A program made the position numbers and the translations under genes. A stretch of DNA of 64,000 bases, from NCBI GenBank assembly GCA_947462335.1, contig OX381710.1:3906001-3970000 (forward strand), given 5' to 3'. Under the pieces are notes generated by a model. That model was not told where the DNA came from. It searched no databases and saw only the letters and a list, made by a program, of their open reading frames with translations. The stretch is from Harmothoe impar. Lineage: Eukaryota > Annelida > Polychaeta > Phyllodocida > Polynoidae. Each line of letters starts with the position of its first letter. The stretch's first letter is position 1. Of the stretch, positions 7,561 to 52,959 are shown piece after piece.

Positions 7561-7669
7561 TAAGGGCACAAACAAACTACTAAAGTTTGACGACTTCATC
7601 AATGTATCTGTATTTGTATACATATTAGTAGTATAGTATGTATCGGAACGGGACTATAGTTAAGTACTG

Positions 7670-7675
7670 TTTATT
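7670..7675 (-). promoter_or_regulatory. Outward poly(A) signal in E1 left TIR
   Basis: The minus strand reads AATAAA within GAGTAATAAACAGT, about 45 bp from the element end and directed outward. The same hexamer occurs at the same place in all four TIRs of E1 and E2. It would end transcripts that leave the element. Confidence 0.5.
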
Positions 7676-7684
7676 ACTCAATCG

Positions 7685-7975
7685 ACCTGCAGCCAATCAG
7701 AGGCCTCCCTTTTGGCGGGAAATTCAAAAGCAGCCAATGAGAGGCCTCCCTTTTGGCGGGAAATTCAAATAGGTCACGTGACCGGAAGTGACCTACTTCC
7801 GGTCACGTGACCTTTGGGCGGGAAATTCAAATAGGTCACGTGACCGGAAGTGACCTACTTAAGAGGGTCACGTGACCACCATGTTGGCGGGAAATTCAAA
7901 TAGGTCACGTGACTGGAAGTGACCTACTTAAGGGGGTCACGTGACTACTAGGTTGGCGCGAATTTCAAAATAAGT
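7685..7975. promoter_or_regulatory. Transcription-factor motif array in E1 TIR
   Basis: The stretch contains CCAATCAG and CCAATGAG (CCAAT boxes, NF-Y type). TTTTGGCGGGAAA, the E2F consensus, occurs twice, with three further GGCGGGAAA or GGCGCGAA variants. Most are followed by TTCAAA, a CHR-like motif. Six GGTCACGTGAC palindromes (E-box/USF/CLEAR type) and ACCGGAAGT (ETS/GABP type) on both strands are also present. Spacing is regular because the stretch is a tandem of about 65-bp modules. The motifs are seen directly; binding is inferred. The same array is inverted at 16860-17145. Confidence 0.6.
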
Positions 7976-8162
7976 CACTTGAGATTTTTATGGATAAATA
8001 AATTTTAAAAAAGAAAAAAAGCAAGCTGAAAGCTTGCTAAAAAATAATTTAAAAATGTGGCTCTTTTTTTTAGGGGGGGGAGGGGCACTCTGGGGGGCAC
8101 TCTTTAAGATGCATGGGGGGGGAGGGGGGGGAGGGGGGGAGGGGAAGGGTTTTTTAAGAGTG

Positions 8163-8209
8163 AGACTCGCTTCTCTGCCCTCTCTTTTAGAGGGCAGAGA
8201 GGCGAGTCT
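8163..8209. other. 21-bp hairpin in E1 left TIR
   Basis: Arms 8163-8183 and 8189-8209 pair over 21 bp with a single G·T-type mismatch around a 5-base loop. The core is CTCTGCCCTCT/AGAGGGCAGAG. The twin in the right TIR is at 16625-16671. It could act in replication, in transcript processing or as an integrase-proximal landmark; I cannot tell which. Confidence 0.7.
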
Positions 8210-8332
8210 ACTTACAATGAAAGGTAACATGATTGCGTTTATGATGATGTGCATCATGATGTGACTATCTTACAACTTTATAAGAAATAAGCAAGACATG
8301 GGCGTACTTACACGGGCTATTTGTAAACTAAT

Positions 8333-9980
8333 GAATGTGACTTCCTCGTTAAAGTCGGTATCTACAACTCTTTTAAGCCTAAGGCTTTTTCTTGAGTTTA
8401 TTCTTTTGTTCAATTTTGGGCCCACCTCAAAAGAGGAATAGGCCCTCTGTAACAATTGTCGCTTGCTCATCAATCAGAGCCGGGGTGTAGAAGGCCCCTG
8501 CCCTGTCGGGTACGAGATAGATCGACCTCTGGTACGTTTTTGGTTAGTTTGGAGCTCTCAGTCGACTGTCTTATCCACCTTAAAAAAAACAGACTTTCGG
8601 TGTCTCATGATAAAACTGGTGCCTTATACTAAGTGCTGGATTACTTTCTCATTTTTTTAGTGTTCTATCCGATGCTTATTTAATTTTTGCACTGATAAAA
8701 ACAGTTAGCTTGTACAAACACGCGGTCTATTTAAGTGTTAAGTGTAGAAAATGAACAGAACAGTGCACAGAAAATAGAGCTACCGACTACATTTCGCCCA
8801 GTCACTCAGCGGAGAACAAAAGAACTACTGACGTAGTGTACCCGCTATTCCGACAGTTGGCGCCACCGTTATACTTTTCCCGCGTGCGACATGAAGCCCT
8901 GGGGTGGGTACTGGCTGTTTTGGTTGTAGGTACCGAAACATAAAAAACTACAGCCAGCCCAATGTCATGGTGAGACAGCTCTCTTATTTTTACCTTGAGT
9001 AGCGTCCGTAGGGCCTATGACAAAACCTAGTCCCGTACACTGAGCAGCTTGAGGTCTGAAGGCTCATACAGAAAAATGTGTGGGTGTGTGGGTGTGTGGG
9101 TGTGTGGGTTGCTTTACGCCTTAGTTAACAGCTATGGTCATTTCAAGAGCGGTGATGGTGATCGAATCTATTGGCCCTTTTACCGAGACAAGGGTTCTTT
9201 TACATCCCACACTACATAGCAGAGAGACGTCTAGCAGCCCCTAGAGGCCCCGCAGGGGGCTCGAGAGGTGCCGTGGAGAAGAGTAGATATCCACGAGAGG
9301 ACACGCCAACAACCAAATTCTATCTTTATCCCGCGAGAAAAGGAGATAAGGGTCAAGGTTATGAACCATCAAAAGATTTTAGAGTAAATTAAGTTATGAG
9401 ATATTAATATAATGTACATATCTAGGGCCCGATATAGGGTCTCTGCAGATCTCCCTTCAGGGCCCCGATCTATGGGGCCTTAGAAACGGAACTGGGTCAT
9501 GTAACCAAGGGAGATCAGCAGTTGTTGATGTCGGCGCTGCCGATAACGCTGGTAAATGACCGTTTTACTCATGTTTAGAGTCAGAATAGCTTGAGTATTA
9601 CTTGAATATCGAAGAGTAGAGGTTAAATTACCCCAGACAAGGTGTTTCCATCTAGAAATTCTCGACAGTATTTCCGAAAATTGCAAATATTGGTCCCAGT
9701 CCCACGGGGCCCCATACCGAGTATTAAAAGTTTGAGATGCAACTTTCATTCATGCTGTTGACCAATCAGGGCGCCCTGTTTTTACGACCTTGACTACATA
9801 GTAAAAGTGATTGACAACGTCAGATATCACTTGACGACGTCAAATATCGATCTGATATTTGATCCCTTGATATTTGATTCAAAACCCACATCGAGTGGGA
9901 TAAAGCCTTTTATCATCTTTTGATTGTGAGGCATACACTTTTCTTACACACAACAGCTGTCATCTATCAAGGGGTTCTGG
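8333..9980. other. E1 interior left, no gene recognised
   Basis: No frame longer than 90 codons is present and none is recognisable. Seen here: a TGTGTGGG microsatellite at about 9078-9110, and a segment 9109-9181 (TTAACAGCTATGGTCATTTC and GTGATCGAATCTAT) repeated at 12763-12830. A minus-strand 89-codon frame at 9480-9749 has ordinary composition but no family I know. Confidence 0.5.
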
Positions 9981-9984
9981 ATAG

Positions 9985-10205
9985 GGGGTCCCCATGTCGA
10001 ATGTCGATCTTAGAAAATGACCATGTCACATGGCAATGTCACTTAATAATGTTCATATCCCATGTCGATTTTAAGAAATGTTCATGTCACCTGTCACTAT
10101 GATTTTTTGGGCCTCATGTCACTTGTCATTAGACCTCATGTCGTTTGTCGATTATAAGAAATGGTCATGTCACCATATCGAATTTAGCGGTCCACATCCA
10201 TTATC
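9985..10205 (+). repeat. CATGTC-type array, left copy
   Basis: Degenerate units of about 25-35 bp contain CATGTCGAT, TTAAGAAATG, CATGTCACCTGTCACT and CATGTCG. An inverted, partly colinear copy lies at 15730-15895, and a short third copy at 11396-11460. It looks like a protein-binding array or a decayed minisatellite inside E1. Confidence 0.6.
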
Positions 10206-10414
10206 AAGTGTCAGGGCATGTTGGCTGCTTGAACACGTAGTCTGTCATCACCCTTGTTTCTGTGCCTTATCTAAACAGGCAATTAGTGGCCGCTAGCCGA
10301 GAGTACCTCCCTGGTCGCCTCTCCCGAATCTGCTAGACGTCTCACTGATAGGAGTGTGTGGGTGTGTGGGTCTGTGTGTGTCTGTTCGGTCTGTGTGTGC
10401 ACGCGTCTTGCACT

Positions 10415-10503
10415 CTAGTCTTGCGGACCACTGTTAAGCCTGTGGTTGGAGAGCGCGACATAGCCGCCCGCTACACTCTCCAAACAGAGGTCCGCAAGAC
10501 TAG
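10415..10503. other. Bipartite hairpin in E1
   Basis: The arms CTAGTCTTGCGGACC (10415-10429) and GGTCCGCAAGACTAG (10489-10503) are perfectly complementary over 15 bp. Inside, TTGGAGAG (10446-10453) pairs with CTCTCCAA (10476-10483). The result is a two-stem structure with a GC-rich apical loop. A structured RNA or a cruciform is possible. No known family is recognised. Confidence 0.65.
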
Positions 10504-10957
10504 GCCGGATCGCGCTCTTGCTTAAAGGTGCACCTCAACTCAGTGCGCCTTTAACAGCCGCCCCAAATAGGTGAAGTTCTTGACGCGGCACAGCGCCTCC
10601 CACCAGTAGCCAATCAGCGCGCCGAACGCCGGACACACCTCCACCGTGTGAGCCTCTAAGTAGGTCACACGAATCATACTAAGATGCCGATCTCTTCTGT
10701 CGGTTCGTCGCGGTGGCCGTGAGTGATCGCACGGTCGCCAAGATTCACTGCCTTGATTGGCAGAGGGGGGGGCTGATTACCCCCCGTCGGATGAATTGCG
10801 GCGAAACCATAATCAATTTTTCGCTGTTTTAGATAAAAGAGATCCAGAGCTATCCGCTCGTCCAAGAATTATTTTTCTATCAGCCCGGGATCACCCTCAA
10901 ATTAAGGCCTAAAGTCCAAAAACCCAAAATTTTTTCCCTATGGGATTTCAGTGTCTA

Positions 10958-11011
10958 AGCGTTTTTTGCAGCCCCAAGGAGCAGCTCACGGGTTCGAACC
11001 CTGTAAACGCT
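10958..11011 (+). other. tRNA-like acceptor/T-arm minihelix
   Basis: AGCGTTT pairs perfectly with AAACGCT at the other end, and a 5-bp T-stem encloses TTCGAAC. Only 23 bases separate these, too few for both D and anticodon arms. A second GGTTCGAACC with weaker flanking pairing lies at 11075-11085. This may be a decayed tRNA or tRNA-derived sequence. GGTTCGAACC is palindromic, so chance cannot be excluded. Confidence 0.3.
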
Positions 11012-11556
11012 TTGACGCGCTTTCGTCGCCTTAGGCGACGTGGCTAGACGTCTTGACTAAAACTTAGTGAGGGTTCGAACCCGGAACGTCCGTATTAGAC
11101 GCCTAATTTCTACTAGCCCCGAAAACGAGAGTATCACATCTATATAGGTCAACCATGTTAGCCTTGGTTTAAGTGCGTGCAGAACCGTGTATTGTGCATT
11201 TATGCAGCATACAGATATGGAGACAGGCTGCTACAGTGTCAAATTGATCGGCATTGTATGTAACTGGACATGAAGAAGGATATTTTTACTTAGTTTTCTA
11301 AAAAAAAAAAAAGAGGGTAGTTCTCGGTACTACTATAATACTAATAGTGTCACTAAGGGAGAAAATGTAGGGGCACCGTAATTGAGAATTTCTTATTCAT
11401 GTCGCATGTCGATTTTTAAGAATGCTAGTGTCACATGTCACTTAAATGGTCTAATGACACAGATAGCACTAAACCTATAGACCTACCCCCCGTCCCCTTA
11501 GTCTTTCTATACTGAATCCGGGACTTGCCGGCGAGGTCGACAAAGGACTTACCTAA

Positions 11557-11960
11557 GGCCAAACAAAAAAAAAGTTGTGTTCAGGTAACCCGACCCACCC
11601 TATCATTTTGCCCCGACCCTAATCTTTTTAGATTTTTTTATTTTTTTTAGACTTTTCCTGATCTAGGTTATCACCAAAGGGGAAAGGAGTACCTAATGAC
11701 CTTCAACTATCCTATTTGTCATCATTTGAAAGATAAGAAGGGAGGAAATCCTTTCTATGACAAAAACAGTGCTGATAATGGCTTAATTAGACAGATATTG
11801 GTCCTACATTATCAAATAACAACTCTATACAATGTGATTCTCCCATACAACTCATCTCAAAACCCTAAAAAAAAAATCCTAAAAAAAAAAAATCGACCGA
11901 CCTACCCTATTTTTTTTTTGGGCCATGTTACCTGAACACGGATTATTTTTTTGTTTGGCC
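11557..11960. mobile_element. GGCCAAACA MITE copy 1 in E1
   Basis: The ends are inverted: GGCCAAACAAAAAAAA then GTTCAGGTAAC on the left, GTTACCTGAAC then TTTTTTTGTTTGGCC on the right. The inner ends also pair (GGTAACCCGACC with the CGACCGACCTACC region). Length is 404 bp. No clear TSD is visible. A relative with the same end motifs lies at 14569-14837. Its frames are A/T-rich and not credible genes. Confidence 0.6.
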
Positions 11961-12226
11961 CAATGAGCTCACAGCTAGACTAGATACCCCATGTTTTGGA
12001 TTGGAGAAATCAGCAGAGCAATAAAAAGCGCGGTGAGGCTAGTGTGGCCCCTGTGAGTTGTAAAATTGGTGCTAAATGTGGTAACCAGGCGGATGCTGAG
12101 TTCATTGATATTGTCCGTTAATGATACTTAAGGTGGGTGTTGTCTAAAGTTTTAATTGATATTACCAATGTGGCCAATAATGACTTCACAGTTGGGGCCC
12201 TCGCCCGCAGGTCCCAGATTCAGGGT

Positions 12227-13060
12227 ATTCTTTGTTTATTGTGTGGCCCCTAAAGAGGGGCCGACTAACTCTTTAGAGTTAGTTAGATGCTGCCACTGTG
12301 CTATGCAACAGCAGCTATTAATAACGCTTCATGTGGGGCGGCATGGATCACTTGATGGGTGATACCTCAAAGCTCAAACACGGCAGAGCCGTGTGTGGCA
12401 TGCGAGGACCAGTGGGTCAGGGGTGATCCGTTGCAAACAGAATGCTGATCCGTGTGAGGTTCTGACTTTCTATAGTTTTTATAAAGCCTTAGATATGGTC
12501 TGGTATTTTTCATCTCGCTATAGTTTAGTTGGTATTTAAGGAAACCGCCTCATTTCTATCAGAAATACACAATATTGAATTGTTTTTTATATTTTAATAT
12601 ATTAGAAGCGCGCTTTGTTGCCTATGTAGCTCATTATGCGTTGAAATGTTCGCGAGCATCGTAGGAATGTACAAAACCCCTATTGTGGCACCATCTGACG
12701 AAAGAGCGGAGAACTATACTAGCGCGTTTCGTTATTCACATCTTTTTGACAGGGACTTGGTTGGTGGCTTTTACGCCCTAATTAACAGCTGAAGTCATTT
12801 CAAGGGGGGTGATAGTGATCGAATCTATGGATACCTGAAGGTGGAAAGCACACACCCTACACTTTTACCGAGGCAATGGTGGTGCTGCTCAAAGGGTGTG
12901 GCGAGCTAGACTGGAGGATGTAATAACTAAGCAGCAGAAGGACCAAAAAGACAATCTCGTAGTAGTAGGTCTACTTAGATCTTGAGTAGCCGCCCTTGTG
13001 GTTATAATTACCTAGACTAGTTGGCTCTGCCAGCCTGGTCAAGTGAAAATTGGTAAGGAG
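12227..13060 (+). repeat. E1 internal module, copy 1
   Basis: The segment starts with TTCTTTGTTTATTGTGTGGC and includes TCAGAAATACACA, AAAACCCCTATTGTGG and GACAATCTCGTAGTAGTAGG. It recurs in the same order at 13379-13987. Copies differ by substitutions and indels. No coding frame is conserved between copies, so this looks like a duplicated non-coding module. Confidence 0.7.
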
Positions 13061-13378
13061 ACTATGAACTAAGCTAACATCTCATAAGTATTAGTTACCA
13101 CCCCCTCACACCCGTTTAACAACGGATTCAGGGTCTAATTATGGAGACCCTAGAGTAAGATTAACAATATATCCCAATGTCTGTAGTAGACATTTACGAC
13201 ATGCAACCTGCCCCCTAGAAGAGATAGATCTGACCACAAGTCCGCAATATGGGACTCCCCCTCTGAGAGTATCAAGGTTTGCGTATAGTCTCTTGCAGTT
13301 TAATCTGTTATCTACCCCTTTGTCGACTTCGCCAAAATCCTGGGAGATTCACTTTAAACCTAAGGTCTACCCTTTTTT

Positions 13379-13987
13379 ATTCTTTGTTTATTGTGTGGCC
13401 CCTAAAGAGGGGCCGCGGTGTTGATTAATTACACCACATGTTAAGCAGCATGAGATCAAACCTTCCTCAAAAGCGTCAAGGCTCAGAGTCCTGTTGGACG
13501 GGAACCCTGTGTGGCATTTCAAGACGAATGGTTGAGTGATCTGTTGCAGATGCCGTTCCGTGAGAAGTTCTGACTTTATATAGCTTTTATATCGCTTTAG
13601 ATATGGTGTAGTATTTTCAATCTCACTATAGTTTAGTTGATATTTCAAAGAATCTGCCTCATTCTATCAGAAATACACAGCGTTGACATGTTTCTTATAT
13701 TCAATATATTAGAAGTGTGCTTTGTTGCTTATTATAGGTCATTATGCGTTTAAAATGTTCGCGAGTATCGTGGAAATGTACAAAACCCCTATTGTGGCGT
13801 CATCTGACGAAAAGAGCGGAGAACTATACTAGAGCATGTTATGGCCAGACCAGAAGGCGGCAGCAGAGTGGTCAAAAGACAATCTCGTAGTAGTAGGTCT
13901 ACTTGCATGTTGAGTAGCCACCCTTGTGGTTGTAATTACCTAGCCTAGTTGACCCTGCTGGCCTGGTCAAGTGAAATTAGTAAGGAG
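13379..13987 (+). repeat. E1 internal module, copy 2
   Basis: Direct repeat of 12227-13060, shorter because about 200 bp around 12730-12930 has no counterpart. The minus-strand 86-codon frame at 13388-13648 crosses the repeat but is broken in copy 1, which argues against a gene. Confidence 0.7.
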
Positions 13988-15330
13988 GCCCCCCATTAAC
14001 GCGCTCCACAGTCTTTAGACAGTTAAGACTATAGTCAAGACTGGAGAATTTAGCGAGACGTCCCTCTGGGAGGTCATAATCCTCAATGTTAGGTGTTAGC
14101 TCATTAACATCAGATACCATATTAACAAACCATTTAAAATGTTCATTTTAATAGCAACTCACCCTATTCTGACAAAATCCTATTAGCAGGTAACCTCTGT
14201 GTAAACCATACTGCAAACATCTGCTACTTCCAGCGTCTGCCTCGTGACTGATAGTGTACAACAAGACGAAGTGGGCAGAGATTAGAAAAAATGAGGCTCT
14301 TTATATAGCCGAGAGAGCAGCTAATCTGGATGTTCTAAGCTTGTTTTCACCTAGAGCTCCAACCCTCTTCCAGAGAGAATCAAATCGCTTTTCACCTGAA
14401 CCCTTCCACCCCTAATCCATCAGCATGAAAAGAGAATTAACGAGTGTAACGTGCGCTACATGTATCTGGGATTATAGCTGGTGAAGAGATAAAGCCGAGT
14501 CACCTGTGTATACAAAGACTACAGGGGGTGATTAACGACAGGTGTGACGCGCCAGCCCGTGAACGGATTAAGCCAAAAAAAAAGAAAAAAAAAGGTATGT
14601 TTCAGGTAACATGGGCAGAAAGACTGGGGTCGGTAGGTCGGATTTTTATTTTTATTTTTATTTTTTTTTTAACATGAAAGTACTAGCCATCCTCCGTGGA
14701 AATTCTAAAAATGACCCAAAAAGTATAAAAATATGAAATTTTCTTCAAACTTGCTTAAAAAAAAACGTAGGGTCGACCCTGTTTTGCTAGGGTCGGTCAG
14801 GTGACCTGAAACAAACCTTTTTTTTTATTTGGCCTTATCTTTCAAGCTGACGCTTAAATTCAACTAGCCAGCCGCCGTCCACACCACTCACTGCGACAAG
14901 AGGAGGTGCTGTTGTTTTACACTTGAGTCGCTTACCACATGGACTCTACCTCACAGACAGACACGCGCCCCCTGTAGCTTTTTTTTTGTTTTTTTTTGTA
15001 TACACACGCTAATCTCATAACCCCCTTATCCGTTATACAGGTAACCAGTATTCTCTTTTAAAATAGCTGCCAGTCAGCTTAGCTCTAGAAGCAAGAAGGC
15101 GTGTATAGGTGCCTTATAAGTCGGCAGGGGGTAAATACTAGTGAAAAAAGGAAGGCAGGTGTGCAGGTAGCTTTTCTAACAGACACGTGTGTGCACTAAG
15201 CTGCTTAAGTCTAAACCCTCCCCGCAGTAGTCAGGTGGCATGTGAAAACTTACTTAACTGATCTCTTACATTGAGTAGAGTCTCTGTGCTGAGAGAGCTT
15301 TTTCAGCCGTTTAAGAGGATTAACTAGGAC
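13988..15330. other. E1 interior right, no gene recognised
   Basis: No credible gene is seen. The stretch holds a MITE (14569-14837), A/T homopolymers and a region upstream of the TATA box at 15335. CCTTCCACCCC at 14401 recalls GATCCTTCCACCCCG at 53048 in E2, which suggests the upstream regions of the two elements are distantly related. Confidence 0.4.
14569..14837. mobile_element. GGCCAAACA MITE copy 2 in E1
   Basis: The left end TAAGCCAAAAAAAAAG with GTTTCAGGTAAC mirrors the right end GTGACCTGAAAC with TTTTATTTGGCCTTA. It shares the CAGGTAAC and GGGTCGGT motifs with 11557-11960. No coding capacity. Confidence 0.55.
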
Positions 15331-15334
15331 AGGG

Positions 15335-15342
15335 TACATAAG
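15335..15342 (+). promoter_or_regulatory. TATA box of E1 rightward transcript
   Basis: GGGTACATAAGGAGTGAAAC resembles GGGTATATAAGG with GGAGTGAAAC in E2 at 53471-53491. In both elements it lies upstream of a trinucleotide-repeat tract and points to the right TIR. The shared flanks beyond the TATA box suggest a conserved core promoter. Confidence 0.55.
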
Positions 15343-15369
15343 GAGTGAAACGCCGAATAGCGGCTACTC

Positions 15370-15730
15370 AGTCTCGTGCAGCACAAGCAGCAGCATCTAG
15401 CAGCGGCTTCAGCAGCAGCTGCACGTGCAGCACAAGCAGCTGGCAGCGACTTCAGCAGCACAAGCAGCACGAGCAGCACAAGCCGTAGCATTTGTCAGCA
15501 GCATCCGTGACATCGTCAGCAGCAGCCCCATGACCTTGTCAGCAGCACAAGCAGCCAGCAGCTGCTGGCAGCTGCTTCAGCAGCTGCTGGCAGCTGCTGC
15601 ACGAGCAGTAGCACAAGCAGTAGCATCTGTCAGCAGCAGCAGCAGCAGCACAAGCAGCCAGCAGCTGCTGCATGAGCAGCACAAGCAGCACAAGCAGCAG
15701 CACCGACAGCAGCAGCAGCAGCAGCGGTGG
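15370..15730 (+). repeat. CAG/GCA repeat tract, possible expressed ORF
   Basis: Imperfect CAGCA/GCAGCAC/AGC repeats fill this stretch. An open plus-strand frame spans 15425-15754 (109 codons; Ala, Gln and Ser rich, ending Gln-rich). It lies 30-80 bp downstream of the TATA box. The E2 counterpart is the Ala-rich gene at 54620-55255. Because the repeat keeps all frames open, coding is unproven; a repeat RNA is equally possible. Confidence 0.55.
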
Positions 15731-15895
15731 TGTGGACCACTAAAGTCGAGATGAAGCCTAGTGACATTTGACATGAAGCTTGAAAAACACAGTGACAGGT
15801 GACATGAGCAATTCTTAAAATCGACATGAGATATGAGCATAATTAAGCGACACCGACATGTGCCATGGCTATTTTTTAAGACAAACATCATATGT
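15730..15895 (-). repeat. CATGTC-type array, right inverted copy
   Basis: Read on the minus strand it gives TTAATTATGCTCATAT, CATGTCGATTTTAAGAA and CATGTCACCTGTCACT, matching 10030-10200 in the same order. The two copies face each other inside E1. Confidence 0.6.
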
Positions 15896-15968
15896 CATAG
15901 CCGCCTCATCCAAACCTCCACTAGTAGTGCTCTATAAGCGCAAGCTGTAAACCCTCTCCCCCCCATGT

Positions 15969-16346
15969 GCACACAGGCGAATTATCAGAGTCAGCCAATG
16001 GTGTCAATACCCCTCTCATACAGGGGTCGGGCGCTGCTGGACTATAATAGATGAGTCAAGGACCGTTCTACTGAGGGTCAGGCAGGCTAAGTCGGACATT
16101 CAATGACAGGTAGGTCTTTGACAACCTTGCTTGAAAGTCTGGACAGCATTGACAGACTGGGGCATAAGGATCTCGCATGGTCAGACTTTCAAGCAAGTTT
16201 TGCTAAAGTCGCGTTATTGAATGTCCGACCTAGCCTGACCCACAGTAAAACGGTCCTTGACCCGTCTATTATAGTCCAGCAGTGCCCGACCCTTGGCTGA
16301 GAGCAGTTTAAGCGCCATTGGGTGTCTCTGATATTTGCCTCTGTGT
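15969..16346. other. Long imperfect hairpin (~375 bp) in E1
   Basis: The left arm 15969-16140 and right arm 16178-16346 are complementary over most of their length. Matching phrases include GTCGGGC, CTGCTGGACTATAATAGA, GTCAAGGACCGTT, GGTCAGGC, GTCGGACATTCAAT and CTTGCTTGAAAGTCTG, each with its complement in the other arm. The loop is about 35 bases. It sits between the CAG tract and the right TIR, downstream of the rightward TATA box, so a transcript would form long dsRNA. A nested foldback insertion is an alternative. Confidence 0.75.
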
Positions 16347-16501
16347 AAGATGAGAAAAAAAGTCTGTTGAAAGACTATATTTCAAGCCAGAAAACTGTAA
16401 TTAGCTTTCCAAGTTGTTTATTTAACAATATCTTAGCCTAGCAAGCAGCTGTCAGATGTCATCTAAGAAAAAAATGTGAGCTGTTAATAGATTCAAGAGA
16501 A

Positions 16502-17206
16502 ATTAGTTTACAAATAGCCCGTGTAAGTACGCCCATGTCTTGCTTATTTCTTATAAAGTTGTAAGATAGTCACATCATGATGCACATCATCATAAACGCA
16601 ATCATGTTACCTTTCATTGTAAGTAGACTCGCCTCTCTGCCCTCTAAAAGAGAGGGCAGAGAAGCGAGTCTCACTCTTAAAAAACCCTTCCCCTCCCCCC
16701 CTCCCCCCCTCCCCCCCCATGCATCTTAAAGAGTGCCCCCCAGAGTGCCCCTCCCCCCCCTAAAAAAAAGAGCCACATTTTTAAATTATTTTTTAGCAAG
16801 CTTTCAGCTTGCTTTTTTTCTTTTTTAAAATTTATTTATCCATAAAAATCTCAAGTGACTTATTTTGAAATTCGCGCCAACCTAGTAGTCACGTGACCCC
16901 CTTAAGTAGGTCACTTCCAGTCACGTGACCTATTTGAATTTCCCGCCAACATGGTGGTCACGTGACCCTCTTAAGTAGGTCACTTCCGGTCACGTGACCT
17001 ATTTGAATTTCCCGCCCAAAGGTCACGTGACCGGAAGTAGGTCACTTCCGGTCACGTGACCTATTTGAATTTCCCGCCAAAAGGGAGGCCTCTCATTGGC
17101 TGCTTTTGAATTTCCCGCCAAAAGGGAGGCCTCTGATTGGCTGCAGGTCGATTGAGTAATAAACAGTACTTAACTATAGTCCCGTTCCGATACATACTAT
17201 ACTACT
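16502..17206 (-). repeat. E1 right terminal inverted repeat
   Basis: Reverse complement of 7627-8332. It carries the same hairpin (16625-16671), C/G tract, E2F/CACGTG/ETS/CCAAT array (16860-17145) and an outward AATAAA at 17158-17163. Confidence 0.9.
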
Positions 17207-17212
17207 CATATT

Positions 17213-44299: not shown

Positions 44300-44342
44300 A
44301 GTAGTATAGTATGTATCGGAACGGGACTATGGTTAACTACTG

Positions 44343-44348
44343 TTTATT
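44343..44348 (-). promoter_or_regulatory. Outward poly(A) signal in E2 left TIR
   Basis: Minus-strand AATAAA inside GAGTAATAAACAGT, pointing out of the element. It could end read-through from the leftward capsid gene set. Confidence 0.45.
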
Positions 44349-44374
44349 ACTCAATCGACATGCAGCCAATCAGA

Positions 44375-44690
44375 GGCCGCCATTTGGTCACGTGACCCTT
44401 TGCCATGGTAACGTGACCTACTTAGGACTCTCAGCCAATCAGAAGCCAGCATTCTGGGTGACCTACTGACCTACTTAGAAGCTCTCAGCCAATCAGAGGC
44501 CGGCATTCTGGTAACCATGGTAACGTGACCTACTTACGTCACGTGACCTACTTAGGCTCAGCCAATCAGAAGCCGGCATTCTGGTAACTAGGGTAATGTG
44601 ACCTACTTAGGGTTTGTTTGTAAACAACACCACGTGGCTCTCTTGTTTGTAAACAACACCACGTGACACGTGACTGTTTGTAAACAAACA
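44375..44690. promoter_or_regulatory. CCAAT/CACGTG/forkhead motif array in E2 TIR
   Basis: Repeated GCCAATCAGA (CCAAT box), TAAGTAGGTCA on the minus strand next to CACGTG or CACGTTACC, and TTGTTTGTAAACAAC forkhead-type motifs beside CACGTG. Motifs are seen directly; binding is inferred. The module differs from E1 in lacking the E2F and ETS motifs but keeps CCAAT plus AAGTAGGTCACGTGAC. Confidence 0.55.
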
Positions 44691-44764
44691 AACAAAAAAG
44701 TTATGTAACTTATATATAGAAATAAAAACACAACAAGATAATTTCTTTTTTTTTCATTTTATTC

Positions 44765-44770
44765 TTTATT
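44765..44770 (-). terminator. Poly(A) signal of leftward gene set
   Basis: TTTATT on the plus strand gives AATAAA on the minus strand, about 50 bp past the last leftward frame (44815) and just inside the TIR. It is a plausible 3' end for the capsid/protease transcript. Confidence 0.55.
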
Positions 44771-44814
44771 TTCATTTCAATAAAAAAAAACACACAAGTT
44801 TATGCTTTTTTAGC

Positions 44815-45105
44815 TTACTTCTTCGATTTGCAACAACCCAACAGGCCGCAAAGTCTCACACCGCCGTCACTCGCACCACACCCCGGACGACTTCTCTCCA
44901 ATAGACATTGCATGACTTTGGATAAATCCAACACCATTTCGGCAAGGCAGAGAATCTTTGCCTCCATGAAACGTCCGCCATCGCAACAACCCGTTATTTC
45001 TGTCACAACAGCATCATCGATAGCTTCTGACTCACTGTCCGGTCGCTCAGCTTTGGGATTTTGCTCATGCGCATGACGCACTTCTTGGGGTTTCTTGTTC
45101 GACAT
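44815..45105 (-). CDS. Small hypothetical protein overlapping capsid-protease 3' end
   Basis: A 96-codon ATG frame starts inside the 3' end of the capsid-protease gene in another frame and runs 190 bp beyond it to the poly(A) signal. The N-terminus is charged, with an acidic stretch (ERPDSESEAIDD). The middle is a likely amphipathic helix and the end is Cys/Gly/Lys-rich, with two CC pairs. No family is recognised. It may be the last gene of the leftward set or a chance frame. No TATA box is seen directly upstream, so expression would need read-through or reinitiation. Confidence 0.35.
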   Translation of the reverse strand: MSNKKPQEVRHAHEQNPKAERPDSESEAIDDAVVTEITGCCDGGRFMEAKILCLAEMVLDLSKVMQCLLERSRPGCGASDGGVRLCGLLGCCKSKK

Positions 45106-46697
45106 GCTTCAAATAGGAAATGAACGCAATGAGGTCCACAGGTGTCAGCAGAAGTGTCTTGTAGTTGAACGCGGTTTCTTTGCCACTTGAACGGAGCAGA
45201 GCGTTCCACGAAAGACAAGAACTCCGCACTCAGCGGCGGTAAGCCGAAGGAATCAAAGTAGTACACTTCACCCGTGCTCGACACGTAAAACGCCACCCAA
45301 TGCTGACCTGGTAAATGTTGCGGATCTGTGTTGCTCATGAAACAAGTGTCTTTGATAGGGTGCTTCGGAATAGTGTCACAAGAGAAAACACCTAGGAAAC
45401 GATGTTTTGTGTGAACGTTTTCCTTCAACACTCTACTTATTTCAAGCGTGTACACCAAGTAGAGTAGCACCGTTGTTGTTACTTGTAGCGCCGAGCGGGA
45501 ACTGACTTCCACCCTCAGCTGACCCGCTCTTATAAGGTTCACGCGACACCCGTCGTGCGATCTGTCTGGGGTTAAATCGAGGGGGAACACTGTGTTACCG
45601 TTCAGGAATTTATCGTATGAAATACCACAGGAGCGCGCGCCCTCGTACATCCCCGTTTCCGTGTGTAGCGCCAAGTACTCTCTCACGGCCGCTTTGGTGT
45701 TAAAGTCGGGCACGTAAGCGTCGTTCGGCACTTTCTGGTCGTTCACTATCACTTGAAGCGAGCCGATGTCGTAATGCTTCATCTCGAACGGGTTCTTGGT
45801 ATAGCTACCGTTGAAGGCGTCGTGGTCCAGGAAGCAAATCATCATCGACTTGGGAAGCTGGCCTGTGTTGGAGTGCGTGTAGCTGTGATCTCTGTTACCT
45901 TGAGGGATGGCGTACGTCGTCACCTCCACTCTGTTCACCGGGTAGTAGAAGGGGCCGTGTTCTATCACCGCTCTCTCGTGCGTTTCTGCTACAGCGTCCG
46001 CCACCAACACGCGTCGCACGTAGAGCTTCGCTTTGTAGATCTTCAAGCTGTAGCCTGCGTCAGCGGCGCACATCAGATAGAAAGAGGGCGCTGCCTGTTT
46101 CAGAGTGAGATTGATTTCTGTCTCTCCAACGATGAGCTTCGGTTTATGAGCCAGGTCAAAGTGCAGTCGCGCCATCAGCGAAAAGCGCTTGTTGGAGATT
46201 AGCTTCCTGCGCGCTTTGTACCCCGCATTCGCGTCAGTCAACGCGTCAAAGTGACCAGGCGTATCTTCATGCCACCCCTGGGCGCTCATGACACCGTCCT
46301 TCACGTCTTTGTTGTAGTTGAGTAACCCTTCCAAGTAAGCTCGGTAAGGGTAGGTCTTGGTGTTGCCAGACACTTTGAAACCGCCGATGGAGACTTGGAC
46401 GTCTTTGAAGAGCGAGTGAGCCAAGTTGTTCACCGGAGCTACCGCGTCGGTGTTCTCGAGCGCCGCTCCGTTCGCTTTCAGCACTTGACATTCCAGATGA
46501 AGGTAATTCTCGTTCAGGTCTGTGTACTCTTGCGACTTGTTGATGGTGAAATTTATGTTACCTCCATCCTCTAAAGAGTTTTTTGTTTCTATCCCGAGGA
46601 AAGACGACTTTAAGATAGTAGTCTGAGTCGGCGCTACGGTGTGCAGGTCGAGCTCAGAGAGCGCGCACTCGTTACTGCTCTCATGTACGTAAGCCAT
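45003..46697 (-). CDS. Major capsid protein fused to adenain-like protease
   Basis: 564 codons. Residues 1 to about 420 match the F54H12.2-like double-jelly-roll capsid family of Polintons and adintoviruses. Visible family phrases are APVNNLAHSLF (87-97), TYPYRAYLEGLL (115-126), HDAFNGSYTKNPF (292-304) and FPLDLTPD (371-378). Residues 425 to about 535 match the adenovirus-type cysteine protease, normally a separate protein. RFLGVFSCD begins it, His466 lies in HWVAF, Asp482 in FDSFG, Gln513 and Cys520 in TCGPHC. The Gln-to-Cys spacing of 7 matches adenain. The protease would cut capsid precursors. The two domains share one uninterrupted frame with almost no linker. A TATA box lies 55 bp upstream. 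The fusion may be natural or may come from loss of a stop codon. Confidence 0.9.
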   Translation of the reverse strand: MAYVHESSNECALSELDLHTVAPTQTTILKSSFLGIETKNSLEDGGNINFTINKSQEYTDLNENYLHLECQVLKANGAALENTDAVAPVNNLAHSLFKDVQVSIGGFKVSGNTKTYPYRAYLEGLLNYNKDVKDGVMSAQGWHEDTPGHFDALTDANAGYKARRKLISNKRFSLMARLHFDLAHKPKLIVGETEINLTLKQAAPSFYLMCAADAGYSLKIYKAKLYVRRVLVADAVAETHERAVIEHGPFYYPVNRVEVTTYAIPQGNRDHSYTHSNTGQLPKSMMICFLDHDAFNGSYTKNPFEMKHYDIGSLQVIVNDQKVPNDAYVPDFNTKAAVREYLALHTETGMYEGARSCGISYDKFLNGNTVFPLDLTPDRSHDGCRVNLIRAGQLRVEVSSRSALQVTTTVLLYLVYTLEISRVLKENVHTKHRFLGVFSCDTIPKHPIKDTCFMSNTDPQHLPGQHWVAFYVSSTGEVYYFDSFGLPPLSAEFLSFVERSAPFKWQRNRVQLQDTSADTCGPHCVHFLFEACRTRNPKKCVMRMSKIPKLSDRTVSQKLSMMLL

Positions 46698-46751
46698 TGT
46701 GTTCTCTCTTCACTCGGACGACAGACTGACGCCGGCCGCCTCCAGTCTTTT

Positions 46752-46759
46752 TATTTATA
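46752..46759 (-). promoter_or_regulatory. TATA box of capsid gene
   Basis: The minus strand reads TATAAATAAAAAG. The ATG at 46697 lies about 55 bp downstream, which allows a short leader. It falls in the 79-bp gap between the PX-like gene and the capsid gene. Confidence 0.65.
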
Positions 46760-46776
46760 CCTGAGCGCCTAGGCGC

Positions 46777-47175
46777 TTACCTGTCGAACACATCCCCTCT
46801 ACGGCTCTTGCAAGAGCCACCGCCCGTCTGAGGAGAATGCCGGAGAAGTTTCGACCCTTTCTTAGACGCGACAGTCGTCTTTCCTCCCGAGAACGCCGTA
46901 CTCGCCAGTCTCTTCAGAGCGCCTGCGCCTCGGTCTTTCACGCTGCTCTTTAAAGTCCGACCCGCCAGCACATCTTTAGCTACGCCCACACCGGTGCGGA
47001 GCAGCGTTTTTCCCACTGACTTCAATAGCGGGGTAGCCGAGCGCATCAGACCTAACAGAGCGCCGCCCAAACCGTGCCCGCTCTGGAAAGAGCGCCCGCT
47101 GTACACGTTGATGCCGTTGCCCAGTAATCGCTGTACCCTCTGCCTGGGTGGAAAGTACGGAACGCGTTGACGCAT
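46777..47175 (-). CDS. PX-like core / minor virion protein
   Basis: 132 residues, strongly basic. After a proline/arginine-rich start (MRQRVPYFPPRQRVQRLL), residues 30-60 are Gly-rich and amphipathic (GHGLGGALLGLMRSATPLLK), followed by KSVGKTLLRTGVGVAKDVLAG and KDRGAGALKRL. This layout is typical of the adenovirus pX/mu-like and pVI-like late proteins found next to the capsid genes of adintoviruses and Polintons. They condense DNA or act on membranes. The C-terminus is Lys/Gly/Ser-rich. The gene lies 15 bp after the penton-like gene and 80 bp before the capsid gene. Confidence 0.7.
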   Translation of the reverse strand: MRQRVPYFPPRQRVQRLLGNGINVYSGRSFQSGHGLGGALLGLMRSATPLLKSVGKTLLRTGVGVAKDVLAGRTLKSSVKDRGAGALKRLASTAFSGGKTTVASKKGSKLLRHSPQTGGGSCKSRRGDVFDR

Positions 47176-47189
47176 CAGTTTTTTCTCTT

Positions 47190-48308
47190 TCAGCGCTCAA
47201 TAGGTCTCAGATGAAGTGTCACGGTCACCTCGCCTCTACCTAATGGGATGGAATGACCGGATCGGTCTCTTAAATAGATGCCGACCTCGGTAAACCTCTT
47301 TGATTTCAAGGGGAAATAATCCAAATGGGGAAAACTGATAGCTTGCACGCCACCTCGACGCTTTCCGCCTCTGTCCACCGCGACGCAGCGTAACAGCGGC
47401 ACTTGCATGTCGCCCACACGTCTCTCCTGGATCATGTCGGTGTATATGTACACAGAGTGCACGTCCCCGTAAACATCCATCGAGTAGGCGCCGGTAGTCG
47501 GCGACGCGAAACACGTCTTCTCTCCGAAGCCTAGAACGCCTGCGAGATGCTGAGTCAGCAGGACAGCGCAGTGTCTCGGCGGTTTGATGGTGACGCGTTT
47601 CGTCTTGGCGTCGTACGATAAGATCCGCATCGGTTTGAGCAAGAAGCTGGAGCCCTCTAGTCTGTCATCTCGCAACGTCTCACTCAAGCGCTCGACTAGG
47701 GTGTGGTTGCTTCCGGTGAAAATAGGAGGTATCTGGAATATGTTTGGCATGAAACTGCGCACTCCCATGTCTTTCTCCATCTTTTCGATAATCTGTCTTG
47801 CTTGATCGCTGATCGCCTTCTTCTTCACCGCCGGGGACAAGAACTGCTTGTATATGGCGTTCGACTGTCTCAAGTCGACCTCTCTCTTGAACCTTTTTGT
47901 TTCCGGTTTCAATCGCTGCTCTTCCGACGTGTCTGATATCTCTTCCACCGTTGCATAGCTCGCTTCCTTCCAGCTCAGCGGGTATTTTGAGCTGAACGTT
48001 AGCTTGCTTAGACCTTTCGTGTTTTCCATTCTCTTCCAGTCTACCTGCGGTTTTCTTCCTTCGGCGAATATAGTGTCTTTTAAAACGTTGATCGCCTCCT
48101 CTAGCGAACCCTTGGTGCGCAGAGGAACAACGATGATCAAGTCGTCGTCGTGCACGTTAGTCCATTCTGTAGGGAGGATGATCTCAGTCAGAGCCGCTTC
48201 GTACGCTTCGGGCAGAAGGAGCGGCGAGTCGAAGTGAGTTCGGAAAGACGTCAAGCTGTTGTCAGGATAATACTCCATAGAGCTGTTGCTAGGTAGGGTG
48301 ATGTTCAT
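47190..48308 (-). CDS. Penton-like minor capsid protein
   Basis: 372 residues. The N-terminus (MNITLPSNSSMEYYPDNSL, FRTHFDSPLLLPEAYEAALTE) matches the conserved start of the minor capsid/penton homologues that accompany F54H12.2-like capsid genes. In the family the pattern is LPSNSS, then YxPxNxLxxFxT, then a WEVALxEI-like strand. A single-jelly-roll vertex protein is the family assignment. Lys-rich helix-forming sequence occupies about 130-190, and beta-rich sequence the C-terminal half (RVTIKPPRHCAVLL, GVLGFGE). The start is a good ATG. The integrase stop is 18 bp upstream, suggesting a shared transcript. Confidence 0.75.
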   Translation of the reverse strand: MNITLPSNSSMEYYPDNSLTSFRTHFDSPLLLPEAYEAALTEIILPTEWTNVHDDDLIIVVPLRTKGSLEEAINVLKDTIFAEGRKPQVDWKRMENTKGLSKLTFSSKYPLSWKEASYATVEEISDTSEEQRLKPETKRFKREVDLRQSNAIYKQFLSPAVKKKAISDQARQIIEKMEKDMGVRSFMPNIFQIPPIFTGSNHTLVERLSETLRDDRLEGSSFLLKPMRILSYDAKTKRVTIKPPRHCAVLLTQHLAGVLGFGEKTCFASPTTGAYSMDVYGDVHSVYIYTDMIQERRVGDMQVPLLRCVAVDRGGKRRGGVQAISFPHLDYFPLKSKRFTEVGIYLRDRSGHSIPLGRGEVTVTLHLRPIER

Positions 48309-48326
48309 TTTTTTAAATTTTTTTTT

Positions 48327-49463
48327 CTACGTTATTTTTTTGACGGGGATCCACTCATTGAACTTGTCGTCGTAACCTAACCAACGTACGAAAGCTAACT
48401 CTTTACCGTCGACGGTCTTGAGGCGCAACACCTCGTCTATCAGGTAGTTGTTGTCGTAACGCCTCTTGTACACCTTCTGAACCTCTTCCGGGTAGAAGAC
48501 GCCTTTTATCTCCTCGCCCTTGTCGTCTTTCAGCTCGAACCCTCTGCTTCCCAACGTCTTAGCAACGTCGACCACTTCCTCGTGCCAGTTTCCCTCGTAC
48601 CCTTTGTCGAAGGCGCCTTTAGTTCTCAACATCCTCACTCTGTCACCCGGAGCGATGACGTCGACGGCGGACGTCTTTGTTTTTTTCTTCTTTTTCCATA
48701 TTTCGTCGATTTGTTTGTTAGTTGGGAGATCTTGTCGGTAGAAAACTGTTTCGCTGTTTTCCGAGCTGACTTGAGCCGGCGCCATTTTCAACGTCTTGTG
48801 GTGAGTGCGATTGTAAGAAGACACTACATGGTGCAGTACGTCTACGTAGCGATACGTGCGCTTGTGTGTGAAATAACGCCATAGCTTCTCCTTCAGACTG
48901 CGGTTCAAGCGCTCCACTAGACTAGCTTTGATGTTGTCGTTCTCGCCAGTGAAAAACTCTATGCCCTCGCTCTTCAAGTGATCTTGAAAGATCTTGTTCA
49001 AAAACTCTTTCCCCTTGTCTGTCTGAACAGTGCGCGGTCGTCTCTCGCCAGTGTCTGTCATCTTTCGGAAGGCCTCGGTAACATCAGCGCCACTCTTGGA
49101 TTTAATGGGAACGGCCCACGCGTACCTAGAGAAAACGTCGATCGCCGTCACCACGTACCGGAAGCGGTCGTTGTGAGACGCCAAAGCCTGCAGGTCCATC
49201 AGATCTATCTGCCACTGCTGATCGATTGCGCCGGTTATAGTCTTGTTCCTTGCGAATTTTCTCCAAATGGGTTTATGTTTAGTGTAGGCGTCCAGCGACA
49301 CTAAAGCATCTCGGATGATGGCCGGGTTTAGGTGGCGAAAATGATGTTTCTGGAGTTTAGTCACGCTAGTGAAACTGGAGGGCGCTTTGACGTCGGTATA
49401 TCTAGCTACTACGCGATTCTTTTCTTTTTCCTTCTTGGTCAGTCTCTTCACTGGTTTTCCCAT
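48327..49463 (-). CDS. Polinton retrovirus-like integrase with chromodomain
   Basis: 378 residues from the ATG at 49463 (the frame is open further upstream). The rve/DDE core shows Asp87 in WQIDLMDL, Asp149 in QTDKGKEF and Glu184 in LVERLNRSLKEK, an exact D,D35E spacing. WRYFT and AYNRTHH-like phrases (SSYNRTHHKTLKMAP) match the F54H12.3-like integrases. About residues 340-378 form a chromodomain (YLIDEVLRLK, AFVRWLGYD, NEWIPVKKI), which would steer insertion to marked chromatin. It inserts the element and makes the 6-bp TSD. It overlaps the upstream gene by 16 bp. All catalytic residues are present, so it could act in trans on E1. Confidence 0.92.
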   Translation of the reverse strand: MGKPVKRLTKKEKEKNRVVARYTDVKAPSSFTSVTKLQKHHFRHLNPAIIRDALVSLDAYTKHKPIWRKFARNKTITGAIDQQWQIDLMDLQALASHNDRFRYVVTAIDVFSRYAWAVPIKSKSGADVTEAFRKMTDTGERRPRTVQTDKGKEFLNKIFQDHLKSEGIEFFTGENDNIKASLVERLNRSLKEKLWRYFTHKRTYRYVDVLHHVVSSYNRTHHKTLKMAPAQVSSENSETVFYRQDLPTNKQIDEIWKKKKKTKTSAVDVIAPGDRVRMLRTKGAFDKGYEGNWHEEVVDVAKTLGSRGFELKDDKGEEIKGVFYPEEVQKVYKRRYDNNYLIDEVLRLKTVDGKELAFVRWLGYDDKFNEWIPVKKIT

Positions 49464-49647
49464 CGTCGGCCTGTTGGAGGAGTAGCGCCAGGAGCGGGCG
49501 TGAACCACGCCACCGCCGCTAGGCGGTTGCGCCCTTTCCTTTTCTTACTCGCCGCGCTCCTATAGGAAGTCGGAGTTTGGAAAAGTTCACTGCCCTCCTC
49601 GTCGTCAGAGGATTGATCGTCCACCTGGAGAGAAGAGTCTGCTGCTG

Positions 49648-49701
<54 letters not shown>

Positions 49702-50563
49702 CTCCTTCTTCCGAGTCGAAGCTCGGTCGTTTCCGACCTCTGTCAGCAAGCCGTGTGTCCAAGCTTTGGCCAGGTCCGCTCGCTTTATACAGATGGTTTC
49801 CGATCAAGGAGTCTGTGGGAACTGCTTCGCTCAGCGCTTTTGTGAACGGAGAGTAGCCCGCCGGTCTGGGCGCCGTCTTCCTGAACCTGGCGGCGTCGTT
49901 CAGTAAGTCCACTATGTTGATGCGATGCTCAGGTGGTATTCTCCGACCCGACATCTCGCGCACCGCACCGTCCTCGTTCCACTTGACCACACCGGATTTC
50001 TCCAATTGTTTGTACAGCGTCACTGTCCGGATGCGATTCCTCTTAGGAACTTGGTTCACCAACCGCTCAAGTAGGGACGCGCTGGCTTCTTCAGCAGACT
50101 GATGGAGGTGAGCCGGGGGCGAAGAAGTGTAGGATGAAGAGACGTTGCTGTTGTTGGGATTCGCGAGAAAAAATTGCAATCTATTCAACAACCTTCGGTA
50201 TTTCAACATTTTCTCGCGCGATTCCAAAGTGGGATCGTTCAACACTAAGTCCAAGTCCCTGTAGATAAACTGTAGCACCTGGTGCAAGGCCGCGTCGGGA
50301 TGAAGGGACTGTTCTGCCTGCTTGTGGTAATAGGCCATATCGGCAGGTAGGCGGGCGGCGGTGGCAGGGGCGGAACTCTCGTTCTTTTCAGTACGCTCAT
50401 CAGGAAGAGGAGGAAGGTTTGGAGCAGTAGAAGTACTAGCAGCAGCGACTGCAGTAGTAGCAGCGCTAGTAGTAGCAGCAGCGGGCATATGATGAAGTAG
50501 ACCTGCTCGTGATGATTTGTAGAGCGTCTCAGGATCCACGAGCGCTAAGCGTTTGTAGTGTTG
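49448..50563 (-). CDS. Conserved Polinton protein of unknown role, N-terminal stop
   Basis: The frame contains VTLYKQLEKSGVVKWNEDG and IPPEHRINIVDLLNDAAR (about 170-220), a motif set I associate with an uncharacterised gene next to the integrase in F54H12-type elements. A poly-Ala run of about 20 (GCA/GCT repeats, 49640-49700) and an acidic Asp/Ser/Glu stretch precede a basic segment, KKRKGRNR. An ATG at 50582-50584 is in frame but separated by a TAA at 50564-50566, six codons in. The next ATG is at 50488, giving about 346 residues. Either the N-terminus was lost through a nonsense change or the short form is used. No enzymatic motif is visible; a structural or regulatory protein is possible. 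Confidence 0.65.
49640..49700 (+). repeat. CTG/CAG microsatellite encoding poly-Ala
   Basis: A nearly pure CTG run on the plus strand, one ACTGCTG interruption near its left end. On the minus strand it encodes the Ala run of the neighbouring protein. Confidence 0.9.
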
Positions 50564-50661
50564 TTACTGCTCTGAGTCCGTCATGGGGACGACAGTGGCG
50601 TTGACGCTGGCGGTGGCGGTAGTGGTGGTACTGTCGGCGAGTAGGTGTCGAATGAGGTGTC

Positions 50662-51030
50662 TCATATACGGAGAATGCTCTTTATAAGCGGTAAGGCCAT
50701 CCCTATGAGAGCCAGAATGAGGAAACCGCCCTCTTGTACCAAGACGCGTCTCTTTTTTTTGATGGGCGTAGATTTTTTGCCGACCTCCCTCAACACGTCA
50801 GCCGATTCTCGAAGCTTGTCCAGTTGTTTGTCGCTGAGCGGGATGTTCCCTACCAGTAAAATGTGACAGATCTCACTCAACGCTGCGATCAGATCGTCGC
50901 TTCCAGAGTCTATTAGATGCGAGCAGTCCTTTGGCGAGCACTTAGCTAAGTGCTTGAGAGTACCAAAGTGTCTTTCGAGTAGATGAGAAGAAATTTTTTT
51001 GCTACTGCTTTCTCTTGTTCTTTTTTTTGT
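50662..51030 (-). pseudogene. Small membrane-anchored Polinton protein, no ATG
   Basis: The frame is open from the stop at 51031-51033 to the end at 50662, but no ATG occurs before the conserved part; only a TTG at 50880 or other non-ATG codons are available. Recognisable parts are LLERHFGTLKHLAK, the SDDLIAALSEICHILL segment and the basic KKKRRVLVQEGGF, followed by a hydrophobic C-terminal segment (ILALIGMALPLIKSIL). This is the layout of a small protein seen repeatedly in F54H12-type elements between the ATPase and the poly-Ala-type gene. It probably acts at a membrane. The missing start suggests decay in this copy, although a non-ATG start is possible. Confidence 0.55.
50680..50686 (-). 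promoter_or_regulatory. Possible TATA box for poly-Ala-type gene
   Basis: TATAAAG lies on the minus strand inside the 3' end of the membrane-protein frame, about 100 bp upstream of the ATG at 50584. Position fits, but the motif overlaps coding sequence (LIKS). Confidence 0.35.
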
Positions 51031-51721: not shown

Positions 51722-51828
51722 TTTTGGTTTTTTTTCAGCACGCGTGAGAGAGCAGTTGTGTGTCTGACTGTCTGCTGTGTTTCTCACTCGAACGGTAGTG
51801 AATGGTTGTGGAGAAAAGTCAGCCGACC

Positions 51829-51838
51829 TTTTTATTGA
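51829..51838 (-). promoter_or_regulatory. TATA-like element of ATPase gene
   Basis: The minus strand reads AATCAATAAAAAGG, sharing ATAAAAAG with the capsid TATA box. It is about 110 bp from the ATG. Confidence 0.35.
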
Positions 51839-51934
51839 TTCCGGCCGGTGTCACAGTAGCGGCGGCAGAAGTGTCTTTTTTTTCTTTTTATTTTTTGCGA
51901 TAAAATTCTATTTTCACTCAATAGTCATAAATGT

Positions 51935-51967
51935 TTTGTATCAGACTCCAGAGGAGTCTGATACAAA
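51935..51967. other. Perfect 15-bp hairpin between two leftward genes
   Basis: TTTGTATCAGACTCC and GGAGTCTGATACAAA pair perfectly around AGA. It lies between the end of the 219-aa gene (52074) and the ATPase promoter. A role in 3'-end formation or as a protein-binding palindrome is possible. Confidence 0.7.
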
Positions 51968-51989
51968 TATTTTATTTTTTTTTAAAAGA

Positions 51990-52036
51990 AGAGGGAGAGG
52001 AGGAGGAGGAGGAGGAGGAGGAGGAGGAGGAGGAGG
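51990..52036 (+). repeat. (GGA)n microsatellite
   Basis: A GAGGAGGAGG run on the plus strand in the gap between two leftward genes. The plus-strand frame across it is an artefact. Confidence 0.9.
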
Positions 52037-52073
52037 GGAGAAAAGCGCGGATTAATTTTTAATTTTATTTTTC

Positions 52074-52950: not shown

Positions 52951-52959
52951 TCTTTTATA
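52951..52959 (-). promoter_or_regulatory. TATA box for leftward orphan gene
   Basis: The minus strand reads CTATAAAAGACTG. A leader of about 190 bp would follow, with TTTCCACAG at about 52932 that could serve as a splice acceptor. It forms a divergent pair with the plus-strand TATA box at 53473. Confidence 0.6.

Follow-up and report, generated by a model that had tools for sequence, protein, structure and literature searches.

A multi-copy, gene-free element family in Harmothoe impar, probably mobilised by a Polinton-like helper family

The window analysed here, 64,000 nucleotides of the polychaete Harmothoe impar (contig OX381710.1, positions 3,906,001 to 3,970,000), carries two mobile elements with related ends, E1, in which no protein gene is recognisable, and the coding element E2. 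We conclude, with a probability of roughly 0.87 and judging from sequence comparisons, that E1 belongs to a young, multi-copy, gene-free and non-autonomous family, which would be partly of E2-type descent, with an almost totally replaced interior, and would depend for its mobilisation in trans on the E2-type family, whose coding members we call helpers. E1 is regarded as a recently active non-autonomous element because it is multi-copy, its copies lie between perfect target duplications and its outer 60 bp are shared with some helper ends. An earlier interpretation of the window, made from its letters alone (the sequence-only reading), had proposed that E1 was moved by E2-type proteins, and this is now well supported by many copies with a conserved interior and differing duplications, and by an outer 60 bp equal to that of four helper ends. 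The features that define the two elements are as follows.

7621 to 7626, left target duplication of E1 (CATATT)
7627 to 17206, E1, 9,580 bp, coordinates exact
7627 to 8332, plus strand, left terminal inverted repeat (TIR) of E1, first 60 bp the same as in four of the 14 helper ends compared
7689 to 7982, plus strand, repeat-rich part of the E1 TIR with GTCACGTGAC (six per TIR), CCAAT-type and GTGACCTACTTA motifs, which the E2 TIRs share
14378 to 14539, plus strand, diverged copy in E1 of the E2 upstream region (E2 53031 to 53229)
14868 to 15045, minus strand, second, inverted copy in E1 of an E2 region (E2 53149 to 53348)
16502 to 17206, minus strand, right TIR of E1
17207 to 17212, right target duplication of E1 (CATATT)
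44300 to 55751, E2, 11,452 bp, a coding (helper-type) family member with the same ends as E1, flanked by AATGTT

Ends, gene content and genomic copies of E1

The TIRs of E1, 706 and 705 bp long, agree at 705 of 706 positions and contain no substitutions, the sole difference being the length of a poly-G run, which bears out the near-identity that had been noted earlier. Five substitutions were found in ~390 bp of the E2 TIRs (counted on the printed alignment), and given this difference (Fisher P = 0.0056) E1 looks younger than E2. The common ends of E1 and E2 and their 6-bp target duplications were likewise confirmed, the outermost 86 bp being 93–94% alike, with CATATT around E1 and AATGTT around E2. 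A 27-base tip occurs four times in the window and in none of 100 shuffles. The TIRs of the two elements have short motifs in common, in a different arrangement: GTCACGTGAC occurs 12 times in the E1 TIRs, four times in those of E2 and nowhere else in the window, GTGACCTACTTA four and seven times, plus once inside the E1 interior, and AGCCAATCAGAGGCC two and four times.

Neither a transposase nor any other recognisable protein gene was found in E1 by inspection of open reading frames (ORFs), tblastn (among the matches listed) or 3-base periodicity, in agreement with the sequence-only reading. The longest stop-to-stop frames are 117 and 109 amino acids, and a protein search with an 89-amino-acid ORF returned no homologue. 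When E2 proteins and their capsid relatives were compared with E1, the best tblastn match among those listed, as far as relative P0022, had E = 0.18 and the best for a protein of E2 itself E = 0.40, and on these listed matches E2-type proteins hidden in E1 were rejected. Three-base periodicity was detected in none of 22 test windows across positions 8334–15375; among the controls it was detected in 10 of 24 over E2 genes and in none of 112 in host DNA.

The host genome (1.51 Gb, 736 contigs) was searched for further copies, and only the best candidates were scored, hence all counts for the E1 family are lower bounds. With the left 774 bp of E1, at least 40 matches of full or nearly full length, counting E1 itself, were obtained at 97–100% identity (best 40 of 1,898 candidates). 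For the interior segment 12220–14000, all 40 scored matches, again with E1, were 99–100% identical over 1,781 bp (best 40 of 1,807 candidates). E1 is thus a multi-copy element with a conserved interior, rather than the single copy with a random one that would have refuted the sequence-only reading.

Of the 39 other left-end loci, 16 high-ranking ones were fetched as stretches of ~10 kb. They form two subfamilies, A (six copies, E1-like) and B (ten copies), with 0.28–0.46% and 0.87–1.47% substitutions relative to E1 in the aligned parts (59–100% of E1). Nine of the ten B copies have ~500 bp extra near E1 position 1611, where the other (L038) is built differently. The first 86 bp are the same as in E1 in all 16. 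Perfect 6-bp duplications flank every one of the 16 E1-family elements with both ends read (E1 included), and 15 of these duplications are distinct, TATGCC being common to two elements whose flanks are unrelated; a 17th element (L035), with its right end unread, was left out of this count. Flanks of 30 loci were for the most part unrelated (a comparison gave 12 match rows, including an 810-bp repeat), and with flanks mostly unrelated and duplications distinct, segmental duplication and assembly doubling were rejected. The low divergence of the copies and the absence of substitutions between the E1 TIRs suggest that E1 was very probably gene-free, as it is now, when it moved. One copy has itself received a 4.2-kb insertion (L035:4534-8704), whose inverted ends, TAGTGGGGCTCCTTAGCC, are perfect and which apparently belongs to another transposon family.

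Two blocks of the E1 interior point to E2. The copy at 14378–14539 scored 59, against a maximum of 38 among 82 host tiles, and the inverted copy at 14868–15045 scored 86, against a maximum of 36, the highest of 12 shuffles in the masked E1–E2 comparison being 42. These matches to the E2 upstream region suggest that E1 is partly of E2-type descent, long ago; the rest of its interior showed no alignment to E2. Three further candidates were set aside: an unmasked reverse score of 110, thought to be driven by poly-A/T runs, a reverse match at E1 12926–12974 (score 43, where 12 shuffles reach 42) and a collinear match of E1 15186–15239 to E2 53269–53338 (score 36, within the null). The outer ends of E1 have stayed identical to those of some present helpers, and selection by a shared recognition machinery would be the simplest reading of this.

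E2 and the helper family

The predicted genes of E2, together with a later insertion, were located as follows.

45003 to 46697, minus strand, major capsid protein frame running into a C-terminal protease-like domain
47190 to 48308, minus strand, 372-amino-acid protein, a minor-capsid (penton) candidate by position only, with no family hit of note
48327 to 49508, minus strand, rve integrase (PF00665, 51.9 bits, cut-off 32.6) with a sub-threshold chromodomain match
51002 to 51721, minus strand, packaging-type ATPase (Adeno_IVa2, PF02456, 22.2 bits, cut-off 21)
53575 to 54610, foldback element inserted in E2, ~1.0 kb, with long inverted repeats

Most relatives of the E2 capsid protein (32 matches) are near 435 amino acids long, and the closest (P0001) is 91% identical over 75% of the E2 frame. 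The structure model of P0001, with a predicted local distance difference test score (pLDDT) of 85.4, gave as best Foldseek matches the capsid proteins of PBCV-1, an iridovirus, mavirus and Sputnik (E about 1e-15), and through this relative the E2 capsid protein is predicted to have a double-jelly-roll fold. The protease-like domain is of adenovirus type (PF00770, 17.7 bits, below the cut-off of 21.3). Capsid and protease are fused in E2 and are separate ORFs in another helper copy (C1, locus L054), which makes the E2 copy look like a deletion variant. The C1 copy has the protease and a small ORF on the stretch from the capsid gene to the closer end. For this copy, read outside its middle, the overall length of 10,119 bp suggests the E2 gene set without a polymerase. 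No ORF for a protein-primed polymerase B was found among those of E2, the one fully read member. The foldback element within E2 contains a repeated TATGACCGTAATTC-like motif and is probably a separate non-autonomous transposon.

In a genome search with P0001, all 97 scored loci were full length with an open 439-amino-acid frame (best 97 of 2,816 candidates). Helper ends were sought in small windows at eleven of these loci and both were found in seven, giving lengths of 10,119, 10,348, 10,434, 10,471, 10,493, 10,515 and 10,537 bp (mean 10,417). At the remaining four loci no left end was recovered; judged by alignment to E2, three windows stop 19–98 bp before it, and the C14 window has no such alignment. 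Matching 6-bp flanks were present in six of the seven. Fourteen helper ends were compared with the first 60 bp of E1, and among the ten right ends four were identical and six one base off. In most ends the identity to E1 drops to ~0.7 at positions 87–110 and to ~0.4 beyond. At one locus, two open capsid frames lie in the same orientation ~3.6 kb apart (G000:C11:71264036-71265340 and 71267652-71268956), a tandem or rearranged helper copy. Searches of phage records, of viral contigs (by integrase, tip pattern, capsid and capsid alignment) and of PDB sequences led nowhere.

Mobilisation in trans, element length and the source of the interior

In the mechanism we propose, the helper integrase would recognise the outer ~60 bp and insert E1, and the same replication machinery would copy both E1 and the helper; more tentatively, a size limit in replication or packaging may keep E1 near helper length. 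Several observations weigh against this account. Over the first 60 bp, the two ends of E2 depart from E1 at 2 and 3 positions and the C1 ends at 5 and 7, the 10,515-bp helper is without matching flanks, and an exact 20-base tip is present in 26 of the 30 E1-family loci and missing from four. Apart from a few hundred bp around 14.4–15.0 kb, the E1 interior is without a detectable source. The 16 fetched copies are the best matches to E1, so close copies were favoured. Trans-mobilisation itself is read from sequence, and the true helper could be another element with the same tip, such as a polymerase-bearing one.

The lengths of the copies bear on a proposal that extends the preferred reading and does not compete with it, namely that E1 DNA is also encapsidated in particles that the E2 family makes, with the capsid setting its length. 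We put this forward tentatively, as a possibility that falls short of being probable. The A elements lacking added sequence, five counting E1, are 9,543–9,583 bp long (mean 9,564), and six B elements measure 9,921–10,100 bp (mean 10,062). These means are 92% and 97% of that of the helpers. Eleven satellites without large rearrangements thus span 9,543–10,100 bp, beside seven helpers of 10,119–10,537 bp. Gene-free elements usually shrink, and none of the 16 measured E1-family elements has done so; it is unusual for an element without genes to stay close to its helper in size, and this fits a lower limit on length. Packaging would also be in keeping with the double-jelly-roll fold modelled for the relative of the E2 capsid protein, and with vertebrate Mavericks, whose size variation of ~10% was read as a constraint by the authors (PMC8097293).

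The near-helper length of E1 is, however, also explained by recent spread from few parents, and its constancy may just reflect amplification from one or two of them. The sample was chosen by E1's own left end (774 bp), so derivatives without that end were missed and short ones are partly unseen. One copy (L034) measures 10,269 bp with a 688-bp insertion, and four rearranged copies (L036, 10,530 bp; L046, 10,891 bp; L044, 11,091 bp; L043, 11,716 bp) all have perfect duplications, which weighs against a strict size limit, although their internal rearrangements may have arisen before or after transposition. The sequence-only reading had held that E1 stays near the length of E2. This stands in part: with eleven elements at 92–97% of the helper mean, the case is stronger against helpers of 10.1–10.5 kb than against E2, whose 11.45 kb includes the ~1.0-kb foldback, and given the copies of 10.5–11.7 kb it is not proof. 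In its fullest form the proposal would make E1 the gene-free satellite of a polintovirus-like element that is endogenous to an animal and lacks polymerase B. E1 would be replicated and packaged in helper capsids, with a capsid-held length, and would have kept from the helper only ~60 bp per end and a promoter-region relic. This fullest form appears doubtful to us.

A self-synthesizing element would need polymerase B, and none was found among the E2 ORFs, and the helper lengths would seem too short to accommodate one easily. The real master may be a third element, with the same tip and a polymerase B, on which the E2 type and E1 both depend, but the many open capsid genes of the E2 family (97 of the 97 best scored) suggest that it replicates well, and we consider such a master unlikely.

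Since most of the E1 interior does not align to E2, it might also be mainly host DNA captured between element ends. This interior is more than random filler, for it contains a diverged direct duplication with the following units.

12226 to 13060, minus strand, unit A, a TATA-like stretch followed by a stem-loop end at the low coordinate
13378 to 13987, minus strand, unit B, a TATA-like stretch and the same 38-bp stem-loop end, with an Rfam Histone3 match below the gathering score

The units are 84.6% identical over 615 aligned columns. Their 38-bp stem-loop ends (12226–12263 and 13378–13415, minus strand) are identical and each lies downstream of a TATA-like stretch; with a shuffle P of 0.024, this identity is suggestive only. 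The stretches with the unit ends fold stably (z of −6.2 for one, which holds a second hairpin, and −3.2 for the other), and the end of unit B matched Rfam Histone3, the histone 3' stem-loop, at 21.1 bits, under the gathering score of 34, unit A not being listed. Units A and B resemble short transcription units that end in a 3' stem-loop, which would favour capture of host DNA. Against this, no match to E1 was found in the host DNA of the window (~43 kb, a small sample), the 40 best-scored matches of segment 12220–14000 are full length and near-identical, as expected for copies of an element, and one interior block is helper-derived. The concern of the sequence-only reading that the interior might prove to be host DNA is thus partly answered, and we judge capture as the main source of the interior to be improbable. 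The last alternative, an ordinary coding element decayed in place, of which the relic of the E2 upstream region would be a remnant, can be dismissed because such decay cannot give many copies of one gene-free interior, here at about 97–99.7% identity and with TIRs free of substitutions.

The remaining features of the E1 interior and a host gene in the window are listed below.

9993 to 10149, plus strand, array of six iteron-like repeats (near CATGTCACATGTC) at ~30 bp spacing
near 11398 to 11440, two iteron-like repeats
near 15763 to 15867, four inverted iteron-like repeats
15378 to 15725, plus strand, CAG-rich array, low complexity
57997 to 58068, minus strand, host tRNA-Ala gene

A loose form of the iteron pattern matches six places in E1 beyond the array of six and the inverted four, as well as 11 places elsewhere in the window. 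The CAG-rich array of E1 and a CTG-rich array in the right-hand ORF of E2 are both of low complexity and no homology is claimed. An imperfect palindrome of ~390 columns (75%) lies at 15970–16345 near the right TIR of E1, and another hairpin at 10420–10498. Two GGTTCGAACCC boxes at E1 10957–11100, with short inverted repeats flanking them, look tRNA-like at first sight and gave no ARAGORN or Rfam call; a tRNA gene at two GTTCGAACCC boxes of E1 was rejected, with ARAGORN silent there and a fold z of about −1. Outside E1, the host DNA at 17700–62450 is a patchwork of diverged long repeats, such as a 64-bp block present five times (64–95% alike to the reference).

Comparison with known elements

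E2 is, by its predicted gene content, a Polinton-like element. It resembles Polintons/Mavericks in its rve integrase, packaging-type ATPase, protease-like domain and capsid protein with a modelled double-jelly-roll relative, and 6-bp target duplications are found around E1, E2 and six of the seven other helpers with both ends. The 5'-AGTAGT...ACTACT-3' ends are like the (AGT)2//(ACT)2 of vertebrate Mavericks (PMC8097293). In contrast to these elements, E1 encodes nothing recognisable, E2 is without a polymerase B gene among its ORFs and its relatives measure 10.1–10.5 kb, compared with 15–20 kb (PMC4028283). Hence the label Polinton, used in the sequence-only reading, is apt for the ends, the integrase, the ATPase and the capsid fold of the relative, with the caveat that no protein-primed polymerase B was found in E2. 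Polintons resemble viruses, but according to a 2021 paper particles of Mavericks had not been observed.

Miniature inverted-repeat transposable elements (MITEs) and other non-autonomous DNA transposons have ends and a target duplication in common with a coding family, lack a transposase and occur in many near-identical copies. E1 shares these traits, but unlike MITEs it is nearly as long as its helper and has hardly any interior in common with it. Large retrotransposon derivatives (LARDs) are long non-coding units between functional ends that are moved in trans (PMC6431247). E1 is likewise a long non-coding unit between functional ends, whereas it is a DNA element with TIRs and integrase-type duplications and has no long terminal repeats. 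A satellite or defective DNA of a DNA virus would have its ends and length in common with the helper virus; E1 differs in being known here from genome sequence alone.

Some non-autonomous Polintons are present in repeat libraries. In the literature searched, by titles and abstract openings, no gene-free Polinton family was found. What appears to be new here is a gene-free, non-autonomous family whose members are long, nearly match their helpers in length and are tied to a Polinton-like family, with no polymerase B found in the one fully read member of the latter, and our results point to this Polinton-like family as an abundant one. A non-coding passenger of near-helper length offers a handle on how such elements copy, and perhaps package, their DNA. 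The system looks young and both partners are present in many near-identical copies in one animal genome, which makes it directly approachable.

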